DNA of 41,436 nt, taken from positions 1 to 41,436 of the forward strand of contig NZ_CAMTIK010000019.1 of NCBI RefSeq assembly GCF_947072685.1. The letters run 5' to 3'. Under the pieces are notes generated by a model that was not told the origin of the DNA, did not search any database, and saw only the letters and a list, made by a program, of their open reading frames with translations. The stretch comes from an uncultured Cetobacterium sp. (lineage in GTDB: Bacteria; Fusobacteriota; Fusobacteriia; Fusobacteriales; Fusobacteriaceae). How positions within the stretch are numbered: position 1 is the stretch's first letter; the number at the start of each line of letters is the position of its first letter. A program made the translations under genes and the position numbers. Shown in pieces: positions 663 through 17,476 of the stretch.

Positions 663-1126
663 TAAGATTTTTTTATTTTTTTATCAATTTTTTTTTATCA
701 ATTTTTTCTTACTTATTATTACTATCATTTTTAAATGAAAACTATATGTTACTTAGAACTTTAGGTTATTTAAATAATTCATAATATATTATTTTTTAAT
801 GTATTCTAAAGAATAAATATTGTTGTCATTATTATTTTACTATAGTGTTTTATCAATTTATTTAATTATTTCTAAGATTTAATAATATATAGATTTAGTG
901 TAATCAAAAGTTTTATAAATTAGAATAGATTGATTTTTAAGATTAAGAAATAAAATCATTTTAATATTGCTAAAATTAATTTTAAATTAAAGATTTATTC
1001 TGTTTATAGTTGTTTTTTTTGTTTATAGTTGTTTTATATTGTTGTCAGAAATAATTTTTTTGGAATTATAGCGTGAAACATTAGAAGAATTAAGTGTTTT
1101 ATATGTGAATAAGGGAAAAATATCAT
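663..1126. other. AT-rich gene-free region, probable origin unwinding region
   Basis: No open reading frame of note. The stretch is almost entirely A/T, with the heptamer TTATCAA at 681-687, 695-701 and 850-856, and a direct repeat TGTTTATAGTTGTTTT at 1001-1016 and 1020-1035. AT-rich repeats beside iterons are what a DNA unwinding element looks like. The assignment is by position and composition only. I found no perfect TTATNCACA DnaA box. Confidence 0.5.
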
Positions 1127-1129
1127 GAC

Positions 1130-1241
1130 CGTAGGTGTTGTATATCTATAGACGTAGGTGTTGTATATCTATAGACGTAGATGCTGTATTTAAAAGACGT
1201 AGGTGTTGTATATCTATAGACGTAGGTGTTGTATTTTAAAA
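1130..1241 (+). repeat. Five tandem iterons of the replication origin
   Basis: Five direct repeats begin with CGTAGGTGTTGTATAT or a close variant at 1130, 1153, 1176, 1198 and 1221, spaced 23, 23, 22 and 23 bases, close to two helical turns. Copies 1, 2 and 4 agree over at least 21 bases. Copy 3 is the most diverged (GATGCTG), and copies 3 and 5 end TTTAAAA or TTTTAAAA instead of ATCTATA. Iterons just upstream of a rep gene are the usual initiator binding sites of theta-replicating plasmids and chromids. Confidence 0.88.
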
Positions 1242-1330
1242 AGTTAAAAAAATATCCTTTAGTGCTGTGCTTTTTTTGAAATATTTACAAGCCAAGTGGT
1301 CAAAAATAGAATTTTAAAAAACAATATTTT

Positions 1331-1424
1331 TTATACAACAGAAGAGTCAAAATAACTTGTTTTTTTCAGAAATTTCATGTAAAATATACAACATATAAGG
1401 GCAGTTGAATTGAAATATACAACA
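1331..1424 (-). promoter_or_regulatory. Inverted iteron-core sites at the rep promoter
   Basis: The iteron core TGTTGTATAT occurs inverted as ATATACAACA at 1384-1393 and 1415-1424, inside a 19-base direct repeat (1382-1400 and 1413-1431). A near match, TTATACAACA, is at 1331-1340. They flank and follow the -10 box of the rep promoter. In other iteron plasmids such inverted half sites bind Rep dimers that repress rep, so autoregulation is inferred. Confidence 0.7.
1357..1385 (+). promoter_or_regulatory. Probable rep promoter
   Basis: TTGTTT (1357-1362) and TAAAAT (1380-1385) are separated by 17 bases, about 55 bases upstream of the rep start. The -10 box directly abuts the first inverted iteron-core site, so bound Rep would cover the start point. 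Confidence 0.5.
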
Positions 1425-1441
1425 TATAAGGACTGGTGAAA

Positions 1442-3433
1442 ATGAAAAAATTAAAAAAATTTGAGATTCCTATGAACCAGATAATAGATACAGGACCTAG
1501 TGAAATTGTTGAAAAATTTTTGGATGTTTCGGAAATTGAAAATGAAAAAAACCACAGTTTAGTTAGAATAGATATAAATATGATAGAATATCCACTTTTT
1601 ACAAAAAGTACAAGTAAAAAGAAAAATCAAATTATAAGATATTTTTTTAATAGATCAAAAGAAGCATATATACAAGTAAATCCTACATCAGGAGACTATA
1701 TACCTGGAGAACTTGAGGAAAGAGTTTTTATAGCATTATTAAAAATAATGAGAGATAAGAGATATAATAGCACTTTTTATACAACAGTTAGCGAAATTCT
1801 GACAAGTATGGGAATTGTACAGGATTCTTTTAAAGGTTTTTATGGAAGAATATCAAAGGCTTTAGTTAGATTATCTCAGACTAGTTACACATTTAAAAAT
1901 TCCTTGTACTCAAATAAAATAAAAGGAATAATAGAGGAGCAAATAAATACGAATATAATGAATATACATATGATTTCGATGAGACAGGCACATGAATCGG
2001 AAAAAGAATTGTTTATAGATAGAAGGATAAAAGAAATTATAAAGGTTTCAATCTCAGAACATTTTTATGATAATATAATAAGAAAAGGGTATCTAGTATA
2101 TGATTCTCAGTTGTTATTAAGTATGGAGAATCCAATAACAAGAGCACTGTATATGCTGATAAATAAATTAAGATTTAATAGGATGTATATAAAAGTACTT
2201 TCAATAAATCTAATAAAAAGAATTCCTTTAAGTGAAAATATTCAGAAAATAGGAAGAACAATTAAAGTGATAGAAAAAAGTTGTGAGGATTTAAAAAAAA
2301 TGAATTTAATCACAGATTATAAAATTATAAAAAATAGTAAATGGATAGAGTCTGAATTTGAATTTTATTTCAATGAAAGTCATAATGCTCTTAAACAAAC
2401 ATATTTTTATGATGATAAAAATCATTTTGATAATCTATTGATAACCCATACAGATAGTGGTGTAGATCTACCAAATGATGGGAATAAACATTTTGAAGCA
2501 GTGAAAGCAGAGACAATAGATAGAATTCCAACAAATGAAAAGTTAGAGGAAATATTAAAAATACTACCCCCAAAAGCGAGGGAATTAAAAACACTGCCTA
2601 AAGTGATTAAAGATAGCATACGTCAATATGGTTTTGAACATATTAGACTAGTGGCCGAATATATGAAGATTCAAAAAGTCGGAAATATAAGAAGCTATAT
2701 GATTCAAGCACTTTTAAAAGGTTGGGCAGATGATTATATAATGCAAAAACAAAAGAATAATACAGCAAAAGCGGGCAAGAATGAAAATTTAAAGTTAATT
2801 GAAGTATTGGAAGAAGATACTAGAGAAGTTGAAATAACAGAATATGATATTGAAATTAAAAACTTTATTGATAGTTTGGACTTAAAAAACAAACAAAATT
2901 TAGAAGACCAAGTATATAAAGATTATATAAAAATGTGTGGTTCAGAAGGCAAAATTCAAAAAATGGCCTTTAGTGCAGCAAAAGATAAATTAATAAAAGA
3001 TTATGTTTCAAAGAATTTCGAGAATATTACAGCAGAAGTGGCAAAAAATAAAAAAGATAGCCTGGAAATAGAAATTATCCCTAAAGAATCAAGCAATATA
3101 AAGAAAATAATAAATACAATAGAAGTGGACATAAACGAAACTCAAGACATAAAACCACTATATATAGAGAAAATAGAAGTTAAAAAACAGATTACAGCAG
3201 AAATGGCTATAAATAGAAATGTAGAAATAAGGAAAATTTATAGGAATATGTCGATGTTTCAACTCGATATACTAGATATTTTAGAGGGAGAAAATATAAA
3301 AGAGGTTAATAAAATAATAAGACTCTTAAATATAACAAAATTTTTTGAGGGAGAATTAGGAAAATTGCATATAATACTAGAATATGATGAAGATGGAGAA
3401 AGTTATATAAAAGTAACTCAGGTAACTGCTTAA
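1442..3433 (+). CDS. Replication initiator protein, RepA/RPA-like
   Basis: Initiator thought to bind the iterons just upstream and open the origin. The N-terminal half (about residues 40-330) follows the plan of the replication initiator A family of Deinococcus-Thermus and proteobacterial megaplasmids: a YPLFTKS-like start, VNPTSGDYIPGELEERVF (near 80), a block predicted as a winged helix, and NPITRALYMLINKLRFNR near 235, matching the family's ARRLYRFLDKR element. The second half is Lys/Glu-rich, repetitive in composition and unassigned; about 660 residues is long for the family. A GTG at 1436 is too close to the AAGGA ribosome site (1428-1432), so the ATG at 1442, nine bases after it, is preferred. 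A strong terminator follows. The family call rests on motif memory, not a search. Confidence 0.8.
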   Translation: MKKLKKFEIPMNQIIDTGPSEIVEKFLDVSEIENEKNHSLVRIDINMIEYPLFTKSTSKKKNQIIRYFFNRSKEAYIQVNPTSGDYIPGELEERVFIALLKIMRDKRYNSTFYTTVSEILTSMGIVQDSFKGFYGRISKALVRLSQTSYTFKNSLYSNKIKGIIEEQINTNIMNIHMISMRQAHESEKELFIDRRIKEIIKVSISEHFYDNIIRKGYLVYDSQLLLSMENPITRALYMLINKLRFNRMYIKVLSINLIKRIPLSENIQKIGRTIKVIEKSCEDLKKMNLITDYKIIKNSKWIESEFEFYFNESHNALKQTYFYDDKNHFDNLLITHTDSGVDLPNDGNKHFEAVKAETIDRIPTNEKLEEILKILPPKARELKTLPKVIKDSIRQYGFEHIRLVAEYMKIQKVGNIRSYMIQALLKGWADDYIMQKQKNNTAKAGKNENLKLIEVLEEDTREVEITEYDIEIKNFIDSLDLKNKQNLEDQVYKDYIKMCGSEGKIQKMAFSAAKDKLIKDYVSKNFENITAEVAKNKKDSLEIEIIPKESSNIKKIINTIEVDINETQDIKPLYIEKIEVKKQITAEMAINRNVEIRKIYRNMSMFQLDILDILEGENIKEVNKIIRLLNITKFFEGELGKLHIILEYDEDGESYIKVTQVTA

Positions 3434-3890: not shown

Positions 3891-4631
3891 TTATTTATAT
3901 AAATCAAGGTCTAAAAGAAGAGACTTGATTTCATTGTTTAAAGTTTCAATTTTATTATAAACTGCTTTAGCTTTAATTGAATCCAAAGAGGATGTTTCAA
4001 TTTTATTTTCAATTAAAGTAGAAATATTAGAATTAAGTTTGTTGAATAATTTTTCAATATTATTTAAATTTTGATTGCTATTTTTATTAGACACCAATCC
4101 CTCTTTTAGTGAAATATATTCTTTTCGTGTTTTTATTTGTTTGGATAAAACAGCTTTAACCAAATCTTGATTAGCATTTGGAGAAGAAACTTCATAAGTT
4201 AATGAGAGAGGAAGAGATTCAAAATAAGCTTGATCTTCTAAAGATAGACAATTAGTTTTTAGAAATCTAAAACGATTAATAAGTCTTTCAGCACTTTTTT
4301 TTCCGACTTTAATATGTTCTAGCCAAATTCCGAAAGTACCCGTTTTATTACTTGCATATTTTTCATTAGCCTCTAATAGAATTTCACCAGCTTTAGAATG
4401 ATATTGACTTTTAACAAGATTTAAAAGGGATTCATATTTTATCAAGTCAGATTTCATTTCATCGTCCTGAATATCATCATAATTAAAAAGGAGTTCATTT
4501 GTAGATAGAAAATCATTTTCAATAACTGTGATTTCAAACTCTTTGCTTTCAATAGAATCTTTTAGTTCTTCTTTTTTTTTAAAAGAATCTTTTTTTAACC
4601 TGTCTAAAACACTATTTTTTTTATTAATCAT
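3891..4631 (-). CDS. Probable ParA partner (centromere-binding candidate)
   Basis: A 246-residue, Lys/Glu/Asn-rich protein whose start codon overlaps the end of parA by 8 bases, which implies translational coupling. It lacks the classic ParB N-terminal arginine patch and nuclease-like fold motifs. The centre (about residues 95-135) contains GTFGIWLEHIKVGKKSAERL, resembling the W-L...S-A-x-R signature of DUF3102-type plasmid proteins and possibly a helix-turn-helix. The N-terminus (1-40) is a basic coiled-coil-like stretch and the C-terminus (190-246) is again likely coiled coil. By position it is the parS-binding adaptor for ParA. The family is uncertain and it may be a type not yet named. 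Confidence 0.6.
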   Translation of the reverse strand: MINKKNSVLDRLKKDSFKKKEELKDSIESKEFEITVIENDFLSTNELLFNYDDIQDDEMKSDLIKYESLLNLVKSQYHSKAGEILLEANEKYASNKTGTFGIWLEHIKVGKKSAERLINRFRFLKTNCLSLEDQAYFESLPLSLTYEVSSPNANQDLVKAVLSKQIKTRKEYISLKEGLVSNKNSNQNLNNIEKLFNKLNSNISTLIENKIETSSLDSIKAKAVYNKIETLNNEIKSLLLDLDLYK

Positions 4632-5328
4632 TGATTATTCCCCCAATTATATCTCCATAAAGACCCTGCAATTCTTCAGCTTTTTTTGATTGAGTTTCCC
4701 AAATTGTTTTCCCTTTTTCAGAGAGTTGCTCTTCTATAACACTTTCAGGAATAGGATTAGTTAAAACCACGCCAGTATTATCAAAAAAATCAGTTAAATT
4801 TCTAAAATATTCTTTTGAAATTTTTGTACTTCTATATAAGTTAGGAACAATTTGAGTTATTTTATCTCCTTCAGCTTTTTCAATTAATCTAGTTATACCT
4901 GCTGTACTAAGTTTATCAAGTTTTATAGGAACGATAATTTCATCAGTGATTTCCAGGATAACATCGTTTAATATATTAAAGACAGGTGCACAATCAACAA
5001 CAATGTAGTCATAAGAATCTTTTAGTTGAGTAAAAGTACTTTTTATTTTATTCTTTAAATTGATACCAAAAATATCTGTTTCTACAGGGAAATAATCTAA
5101 ATTTTCTCTGATTTTTATTTTTATTTCATTCCCTGTTTGAACAAAAGATTTGAAACCCTTACCACCTTCGAACCACCCACCCAAAAGAATTAGGCTATCA
5201 TTTTGAGCATCAGAAGTAATTAAAGCAGTTTTAAATTCAAGCATTGCTAATCCATGAGCAATGTTCTTAGAAAGCGTAGATTTTCCAACGCCCCCTTTGT
5301 TGTTTTTAATAGTTATTATTTTCCCCAT
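4624..5328 (-). CDS. parA: ParA-type partition ATPase
   Basis: Walker-type ATPase that segregates the replicon. The deviant Walker A box KNNKGGVGKST lies near residue 10, and the Walker A' / switch region reads DYIVVDCAP near residue 108. With about 234 residues and no N-terminal helix-turn-helix, it fits the short type Ib ParA or a MinD/Soj-like class, which relies on a partner for DNA binding and autoregulation. Three starts are possible: TTG 5334, GTG 5331 and ATG 5328. The ribosome site AGAAGG (5340-5345) is 8 bases from GTG and 11 from ATG; I give the ATG but GTG is nearly as good. An inverted repeat CGTTAC/GTAACG (5335-5340, 5355-5360) overlaps the leader. First gene of a three-gene operon. 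Confidence 0.9.
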   Translation of the reverse strand: MGKIITIKNNKGGVGKSTLSKNIAHGLAMLEFKTALITSDAQNDSLILLGGWFEGGKGFKSFVQTGNEIKIKIRENLDYFPVETDIFGINLKNKIKSTFTQLKDSYDYIVVDCAPVFNILNDVILEITDEIIVPIKLDKLSTAGITRLIEKAEGDKITQIVPNLYRSTKISKEYFRNLTDFFDNTGVVLTNPIPESVIEEQLSEKGKTIWETQSKKAEELQGLYGDIIGGIIND

Positions 5329-5384
5329 CACCAACGTTACCTTCTAAAGTTAAAGTAACGCTTTTCACCTCCTTTTATAGTAAT

Positions 5385-8545: not shown

Positions 8546-10018
8546 ATGATTTTAAAAAAAATAAAAATATTATGTTGTTTTTTAATTTTTGCAACAATTT
8601 TATTTGGTGAAGAGAGAGGTGAGAAAAAAATAAAAATAGGTATAGGATATAGTGGACGATCATATGATCCTCATAAACATACTGATAGTGCCACGTTAGG
8701 AATAACAAAACAAATATATAGTAATTTGTTTTGTTTGAATGAAAATGGAGATATAGAGAATGAACTTGTTGATTCCTATAGTATAAATTCAGCTGGAGAG
8801 ATTCAAATAAAATTAAAAAAAAATATAGTCTTTCATGATGGCGAAGAATTAGATAGTGAAATAGTAAAAAAGAGCTTAGAAAGAAATATGGAAATTCCAA
8901 TAACAAAAGTTTTAGTTGAACCAATAAAAGATATTGTTATATTGGATAAATATAATTTTAAAATTGTATCTAGATATAATCCAAAAATTATATTGAATAA
9001 TTTAACACATTCATCACTCGCAATAGTTAAAGAAATATCAAATAAAAATCTTGTCGGAACAGGACCATTTAAATTAAAAGAATGGAAAAACGGAGAGAAA
9101 GTAATATTATATAAAAATAAAGATTATTTTAAAGGAGAACCTAAGGTAGATGTTTTAGAGTTTGTAACAATTCCTGAAGCATCAAATAGATATATAGCTT
9201 TAGAAACAGGTGAGATTCAAATAGCTTATGACTTGGCTTCGATAGATGTAGCGAGCACAAAAAATAGAAAAGATATAAAGATAGTGAGTAAACTGTCTTA
9301 TGGAACGGATTTCTTATCTATAAATACACAGAGGGCACCTTTGAATAATATAGAGATAAGAAAGGCAATAAAATATGCAATAAATAAAGAAGCAATAAAT
9401 GAGGTTGTTTTTGAAAATACAGCAGAAGTGGCCAAATCTATCTTGACACCGAATACTTATGGCTATTTTAAAAATAAGGAAGAGGCAAAAGATTGTCTGG
9501 AAGAGGCAAGAAATATAATAAAAAACTATGGGGAAGCGGTATCAATTGAATTATGGGTATATGATGATTCTACTAAATATCAAATGGCTCAAGTGATTCA
9601 AGCAAATTTGAAAGATATAGGGATTGATGTAAAAATACAAACATTAGAGCTGTCAACATTTTTACAACTTACAGCTCAAGGAGAGCACGATACTTTGATA
9701 GGATTGTGGTATGCGAGTACAGGAGATGCAGACTATGGATTATATCCATTATTACATGACAGCTCAAAAGGCGCAGTTGGGAATAGAAGTTTTTATAACA
9801 ACAAGGAAGTAAACAAATTGTTAGATGAAGCTAGAATAGAATCATCTCCGAAGGAAAGGTTAGCCAAATATAAAAGAGTTCAAGAGATAGTAGAAGATGA
9901 AAATCCAGTGATACCTTTGGTTCATAAAATGTATCATATAGGATTAAATAATAATATTAAAAATTTTAAATTTAATCCAAATGGCAATCATATTTTAGAA
10001 AATATTCAGGTTAATTAG
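8546..10018 (+). CDS. ABC transporter binding protein, family 5 (oligopeptide/nickel type)
   Basis: Extracytoplasmic solute-binding protein of the DppA/OppA/NikA class. An N-terminal signal peptide (about residues 1-21) lacks a lipobox cysteine at the cleavage point. YDPHKHTDSATLGITKQIYS near 40 and the LVGTGPFKLKEWKNGEKV region near 170 are typical family 5 elements. The 490-residue length is normal. GGGGAGG precedes the ATG. No permease or ATPase gene is adjacent: the next gene is a HAD phosphatase 72 bases on. It must use a transporter encoded elsewhere or act as a sensor. The divergent MocR gene probably controls it. Substrate unknown. Confidence 0.9.
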   Translation: MILKKIKILCCFLIFATILFGEERGEKKIKIGIGYSGRSYDPHKHTDSATLGITKQIYSNLFCLNENGDIENELVDSYSINSAGEIQIKLKKNIVFHDGEELDSEIVKKSLERNMEIPITKVLVEPIKDIVILDKYNFKIVSRYNPKIILNNLTHSSLAIVKEISNKNLVGTGPFKLKEWKNGEKVILYKNKDYFKGEPKVDVLEFVTIPEASNRYIALETGEIQIAYDLASIDVASTKNRKDIKIVSKLSYGTDFLSINTQRAPLNNIEIRKAIKYAINKEAINEVVFENTAEVAKSILTPNTYGYFKNKEEAKDCLEEARNIIKNYGEAVSIELWVYDDSTKYQMAQVIQANLKDIGIDVKIQTLELSTFLQLTAQGEHDTLIGLWYASTGDADYGLYPLLHDSSKGAVGNRSFYNNKEVNKLLDEARIESSPKERLAKYKRVQEIVEDENPVIPLVHKMYHIGLNNNIKNFKFNPNGNHILENIQVN

Positions 10019-17249: not shown

Positions 17250-17418
17250 ATGAAGGTATAGGGAGAGAGCCAATTTGGCCACCGAAGAAGTAAATCTTTC
17301 AGGTTAGTTTAAAAAACTTGAGGACCTATACTGGACGAGCCTCTGGAGAGACTCTATGAGCACCGAAGGAGCAAAACCAACTATTGTTGGACTAAACTCT
17401 CAGGTAAAAGGACAGAGG
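17250..17418 (+). ncRNA. Tandem glycine riboswitch
   Basis: Two glycine (gcvT-type) aptamers in a row. Aptamer 1 (about 17250-17330) has GGTATAGGGAGAGAGCC, CACCGAAGAAG, TTTCAGGTTAG and the closing GGACCTATACTGG. Aptamer 2 (about 17339-17418) has CTCTGGAGAGACTCTATGAG, CACCGAAGGAGCAAA, CTCTCAGGTAAAAGGACAGA and closes CCTCTG with CAGAGG. The short linker and both conserved cores are intact. It leads an AGCS symporter gene, with a terminator hairpin between. Confidence 0.95.
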
Positions 17419-17476
17419 AATTATGCAGTAAATTTTTATATTTACTATTTTTTGTGTATAATTCTTTTTTAATTCC

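Follow-up and report, generated by a model that had tools for sequence, protein, structure and literature searches.

The origin region upstream of rep

The window analysed here is a stretch of 41,436 nucleotides and corresponds to contig 19 of the 2.15-Mb, 51-contig genome of an uncultured Cetobacterium sp. (Fusobacteriaceae). It carries the initiator gene, rep, and the replication origin of a chromid of 0.46-0.70 Mb that is conserved in Cetobacterium. The rep gene (1442-3433, + strand) encodes a replication initiator of 663 residues. Its ATG is at 1442 and an in-frame GTG is present upstream, at 1436.

Five direct iterons are located upstream of rep on the + strand, at 1128-1150, 1151-1173, 1174-1195, 1196-1218 and 1219-1241. 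Their spacing is 23, 23, 22 and 23 bp, as in the orthologues where all five are called. These tandem direct repeats adjoining a rep gene define an iteron-type origin, as proposed in the initial annotation. No GATC is found within the 22-23 bp iterons. All five had been credited with a common 10-mer core, TGTTGTATAT. The core is exact in three of them (1136, 1159 and 1204) and degenerate in the two others (TGCTGTATTT in iteron 3 and TGTTGTATTT in iteron 5). As previously noticed, two exact copies are also found on the - strand, at 1384-1393 and 1415-1424. The window thus contains five exact matches, compared with 0.2 expected. A wider search for the 10-mer had been suggested as a check. In the whole genome, 23 exact matches were identified, five at the rep origin and 18 dispersed on other contigs. 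The reversed pattern, used as a control in the same genome, gives 21 matches; outside the origin the 10-mer is therefore at background frequency and not a common word. At this background rate, the Poisson chance of five matches within 289 bp is ~7e-16. An isolated iteron-like site is also observed inside a substrate-binding-protein gene (9415-9432, - strand). It scores 17.9 bits, above the promoter sites described below, and may have arisen by chance.

Upstream of the iterons, region 1002-1045 (+ strand) is a candidate DNA-unwinding element. It is AT-rich, contains TTG-phased 9-10-mer repeats (GTTTATAGTTGTTTTTTTTGTTTATAGTTGTTTTATATTGTTGT) and is among the best conserved intergenic stretches across 7 aligned orthologues. 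Related TTGTTATATTGTTATGTAC elements are found upstream of the iterons in plasmid paralogues, and upstream of the chromosomal rpa gene. A scan for DnaA boxes gave one exact match, TTATTCACA, on the - strand at ~1104-1112, which is not seen in orthologues.

Inverted iterons overlap the rep promoter

The rep promoter was predicted from an alignment of 11 orthologues. The -35 element is TTGTTT (1357-1362, + strand), where most orthologues have TTGAAA and the TTG is invariant. The -10 element is TAAAAT (1380-1385, + strand), after a 17-bp spacer also found throughout the alignment, and the aligned promoters are of the TGTAAWAT type. A consensus promoter scan missed this conserved promoter, whose -35 element scores 3 of 6. 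Conservation of an upstream open reading frame was also sought in the rep leader and is absent.

Three inverted iterons (- strand) surround this promoter. Site A (1331-1348) is upstream of the -35 element, 53 bp from site B (52-53 bp in orthologues), and contains the one-mismatch inverted 10-mer initially noted at 1331-1340. Site B (1384-1401) overlaps the -10 element and the predicted start site. Site C (1415-1432) is in the 5' leader and overlaps the Shine-Dalgarno sequence AAGGA (1428-1432). B and C are putative operators; the core of B is invariant in the alignment and C is kept in 10 of the 11 orthologues. A 19-base identical direct repeat (1382-1400 and 1413-1431) is confirmed around the promoter, within a 28-nt repeat of 89% identity.

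The initial annotation interpreted the promoter copies as inverted half sites for Rep dimers. They are instead full-length iterons in register, with the pattern CC-N5-TGTTGTAT. B and C are arranged head to tail, 31 bp apart in the window and 29-31 bp apart across orthologues, and A has the same orientation. No dyad or palindrome, as expected for a dimer operator of the F, R6K or pSC101 type, was found among A, B and C. A palindromic operator was rejected because the sites share one orientation. Reading the operator as a degenerate half site shifted by 1 nt was also rejected, because the register holds against the iterons of sister species. The half-site part of the proposal is not supported, and the presence of initiator sites over the rep promoter is supported by the sequence.

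The inverted site co-varies with the iteron

Many paralogous replicons are found in Cetobacterium. Their Rep proteins are ~40% identical and each replicon has its own iteron sequence. For each replicon, a matrix was built from its own direct iterons only and then used to search for an inverted copy upstream of rep. All 27 replicons had such a copy, at most 175 bp upstream of rep (Markov-shuffle p<=0.045 each, and <=0.0075 for 25 of them). The same result was obtained with loci fetched later, for 10/10 Fusobacteriaceae replicons having clear arrays (p<=0.02) and for 12 additional replicons (p<=0.01), one of which is a duplicate. Altogether, 48 of 48 distinct testable Fusobacteriaceae replicons have their own inverted iteron just upstream of rep, with iterons that differ between replicons. 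When the matrices were crossed among 17 paralogues, the own matrix ranked first in 13 cases, and second or third after a similar iteron in the others.

The promoter of plasmid paralogues is often flanked upstream by a direct iteron, with the inverted iteron placed on the leader. From these arrangements, and from the direct iterons close to the chromosomal homologue described below, we infer that Rep sites may bracket the rep promoter as a shared design, their orientation being free to vary.

A single Cetobacterium genome can contain as many as nine replicons, whose initiators are related and whose iterons differ (G001, G003). A tendency of co-resident replicons to avoid shared iterons, as expected from incompatibility, was not significant (2/76 versus 35/659 pairs, Fisher p 0.41).

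Rep and the sites inside its gene

In the AlphaFold2 model of Rep (mean predicted local distance difference test score 72.6), residues 42-317 form a double winged-helix module. This module matches domains 2-3 of RctB (5tbf, Z 15.8, 235 residues) and iteron-bound RepE (1rep, Z 10.9); the structure of the RepE dimer bound to its operator was also matched. The predicted fold is therefore that of a tandem winged-helix Rep initiator, of the RctB type. Because the modeled module matches RctB and iteron-bound RepE, direct binding of Rep to the iterons would be expected. At the sequence level, a Rep3_N match was obtained in paralogues only (L014, 22.9 bits for a cut-off of 22.4). Searches with Rep gave no match in the PDB by sequence and nothing useful in NCBIfam. 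The initial annotation had named an RPA-type initiator. Rep does belong to the Rep/RPA class in a broad sense, but it has no match to Pfam RPA (PF10134) at E<=0.1, a family that is matched by the chromosomal homologue described below.

Four inverted iteron-like sites were identified inside rep, at 2758-2775, 3025-3042, 3112-3129 and 3190-3207 (- strand). Using a genus iteron matrix, 2-5 such sites were found inside rep in 9/9 orthologues, all inverted and none direct, for ~0.1 expected from codon shuffling. They have near-iteron strength in three relatives and are weak in the window (9-12.5 bits). Their places are similar in chromid orthologues, and they are mostly missing from plasmid paralogues. 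Linker segments that the Rep model predicts with low confidence contain or adjoin most of them. In one frame the sites read as a repeated peptide, and selection may act on the protein instead of the DNA.

The replicon

Orthologues of rep, 78% identical, are carried by 664-705-kb circular replicons of Cetobacterium somerae that are filed as plasmids. More generally, the orthologous locus is found on Cetobacterium replicons of 459-705 kb, beside an rRNA operon and tRNAs. Judged from these orthologous replicons, the window itself being a 41-kb draft contig, the replicon is of the chromid type, meaning that it is large and secondary, has core genes and replicates in the manner of a plasmid. The host is a fusobacterium, as initially suspected, but the replicon is not a small plasmid.

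On a complete orthologous replicon (704,842 bp), the GC skew was followed with twenty 20-kb samples, a finer sampling being noisier yet consistent. The skew turns from negative to positive between 571 and 603 kb, an interval that includes rep (597 kb), and reverts about half way round. This places the start of replication at the rep locus of that replicon and supports bidirectional replication from it.

Upstream of rep, a cluster of six tRNAs (68-592, - strand) is followed by the rRNA operon in the orthologous replicons. Downstream of rep, a ParA-family partition ATPase (4624-5334, - strand) matches Pfam AAA_31 with 85 bits and is below the cut-off of NCBIfam ParA_partition. The neighboring gene (3891-4631, - strand) encodes a probable ParA partner. 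It has no family match, and a centromere-binding, ParB-like role is suggested by its position, which is syntenic in C. somerae. The order rep, small open reading frame, ParA partner, ParA, RluA-type synthase and NUDIX is common to both. Further away, a glycine riboswitch aptamer (17333-17425, + strand) precedes a gene of the alanine/glycine:cation symporter type.

No DnaA found in 61 Fusobacteriaceae genomes

Using profiles TIGR00362 and PF08299 (C-terminal domain), DnaA was found in none of 61 Fusobacteriaceae genomes, including the host of the window. Of 37 fusobacterial genomes from other families, 36 have a match with the same profiles, and the remaining one is 82% complete. A conserved RPA-domain protein of ~600 residues is matched in 59 of the 61 Fusobacteriaceae genomes, with only a fragment in a few drafts. 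These chromosomal homologues match Pfam RPA with up to 32.1 bits, for a cut-off of 27. At the loci whose context was read, the RPA-type gene is located between the yidC/rnpA region and recF-dciA-gyrB, which is the usual place of dnaA. The GC skew switches at this gene in both complete chromosomes sampled. In 17/17 genomes examined, 3-7 direct TTATTNNNNATATACA sites are present upstream of it, often ~105 bp apart, for ~0.1 expected. Those of Cetobacterium that were examined have two direct iterons close upstream of the gene, at a distance of 52-54 bp from each other. The chromid Rep and the chromosomal RPA protein are related by profile comparison (97.7%).

In the window host, the RPA copy is on contig 11 (L127, G000:C11:44673-46493), away from recF. 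The recF locus of this genome (L054, G000:C35) contains genes for an S4 protein, RecF, a DciA-like protein and GyrB, with a transporter gene upstream, and no DnaA or initiator gene was found beside them.

In a sister family that has DnaA, the same RPA protein is encoded at the start of a second replicon (G062:C2:22-1629). This suggests that the initiator of a secondary replicon took over the chromosome, and the G062:C2 homologue is a possible source of the replacement. We consider it likely that, in Fusobacteriaceae, DnaA was displaced at the main chromosomal origin by a plasmid-like initiator of the RPA/Rep type with its own iterons. Chromosome, chromid and plasmids, and with them the origin in the window, would then all use iteron origins that are run by related initiators without DnaA.

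A model for initiation and autorepression

Because the inverted site co-varies with the iteron of each replicon, the best reading of the promoter sites is an autorepressor operator bound by Rep. It is very likely, in our view, that region 1002-3433 comprises a chromid origin and its initiator gene, and that Rep both fires the iterons and represses its own synthesis through the inverted ones. According to this model, Rep, with its two winged helices and its RctB/RepE-like fold, would bind the five direct iterons (1128-1241) beside the AT-rich element and open the origin. It would also bind the full-length inverted iterons B and C, with site A assisting at the promoter. Since B and C cover the -10 element, the start site and the Shine-Dalgarno sequence, Rep bound to them should block transcription. 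By excluding RNA polymerase, promoter-bound Rep would exert a negative feedback that keeps its own level low. As no canonical DnaA is encoded by the host, initiation would have to do without it. The analysis shows the sites, how they are conserved and co-vary with the cognate iteron, the fold of Rep and, for the orthologous locus, a switch in GC skew; Rep binding, repression, the start site and strand opening are inferences.

The inverted sites could instead act mainly in copy-number control (inc/handcuffing), by pairing with the iterons or titrating Rep, the effect on transcription being secondary. Their orientation, opposed to that of the iterons, would fit such a role, as would the additional inverted sites inside rep in all nine scanned orthologues, where the other strand has none. 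Moreover, a 29-mer in the rctB promoter of Vibrio cholerae does both jobs (PMC6090056). However, the position of the sites is fixed on the -10 element and leader in orthologues and on the leader in paralogues, as for an operator, and plasmid paralogues keep the promoter site largely without intragenic ones. A predominant copy-number role is thus possible, though doubtful. A classical operator of the F, R6K or pSC101 type, where Rep dimers occupy paired inverted half sites and monomers occupy the iterons, appears unlikely. The Rep fold does match RepE both as an iteron-bound monomer and as an operator-bound dimer, and RepE dimers of the F plasmid are reported to bind two inverted repeats at the promoter of repE (PMC13028717). 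The head-to-tail sites do not fit this scheme, however: no dyad exists between B and C, and the outer CC element is in register, which identifies whole iterons. Finally, the two promoter copies share 19 identical nt, and their resemblance to the local iterons is limited to the core and the CC element, so that another regulator, such as the ParA partner, could bind them, their likeness to iterons being incidental. We find this highly improbable, because the promoter site of each paralogous replicon follows the changes of its own iteron, and because two exact minus-strand cores in 60 bp have a probability of ~3e-8 by chance.

Several observations weigh against an autorepressor operator. In the window, the operators score ~15.5 bits with the genus iteron model, below the 25-28 bits of the iterons, and one orthologue, G010, lacks site C. 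Four loci of relatives, L068, L072, L076 and L078, had no usable array and were left out of the counts. The replicons share ancestry, so that 48 replicons are not 48 independent events. No inverted copy was found in two Leptotrichiaceae relatives with arrays, and near the promoter of the chromosomal homologue all copies are direct.

Comparison with known origins

The closest parallel is ori2/RctB of V. cholerae chromosome 2, a large secondary replicon whose initiator is of similar size and has the closest fold. Both origins have head-to-tail iterons, an AT-rich element, an initiator site overlapping the initiator promoter and extra inhibitory sites (PMC6090056), which the sites inside rep resemble. 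However, the ori2 iterons are 12-mers that contain GATC, the 29/39-mer sites are distinct from them, and the 29-mer of the rctB promoter is unrelated in sequence to the RctB iterons. In Cetobacterium, the iterons are 22-23 bp long, lack GATC, and the operator is itself an inverted iteron. A functional DnaA box is not expected either, in a host devoid of DnaA.

The oriS/RepE system of the F plasmid also combines direct iterons, an AT-rich region, a two-winged-helix Rep, Rep sites at the rep promoter and further iterons beyond (PMC13028717). In contrast with Cetobacterium, where neither dyad nor DnaA is found, F has two DnaA boxes in oriS, and dimers bind the inverted repeat that serves as its operator. 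The extra iterons of F are downstream, whereas the extra sites of Cetobacterium are inside the rep gene. Within Fusobacteriaceae, Psychrilyobacter haliotis has a putative chromid that is likewise a secondary replicon with rRNA genes and parAB; in the parts of its description available to us, we found no account of its initiator or origin (PMC10580919).

Significance

The locus can be regarded as a sound iteron origin that is conserved and has a putative operator made of inverted iterons, and its greatest value is the DnaA-less setting that it exposed. The 48 replicons, with their diverging iterons and matching inverted operators, provide a series for testing how one initiator recognizes both origin and promoter. 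Through the extra sites inside the gene, the same series bears on the change from a plasmid origin to a chromid origin.

DnaA counts as the initiator common to all bacteria. According to a 2020 paper, cyanobacteria were the only group in which free-living species lacking dnaA had been reported (PMC7198777). We found no earlier report of a DnaA replacement in Fusobacteriaceae in the open-access literature, subscription journals not being covered. If true, such a replacement across the whole family, by an initiator of the plasmid type, would offer a natural experiment on the need for DnaA.
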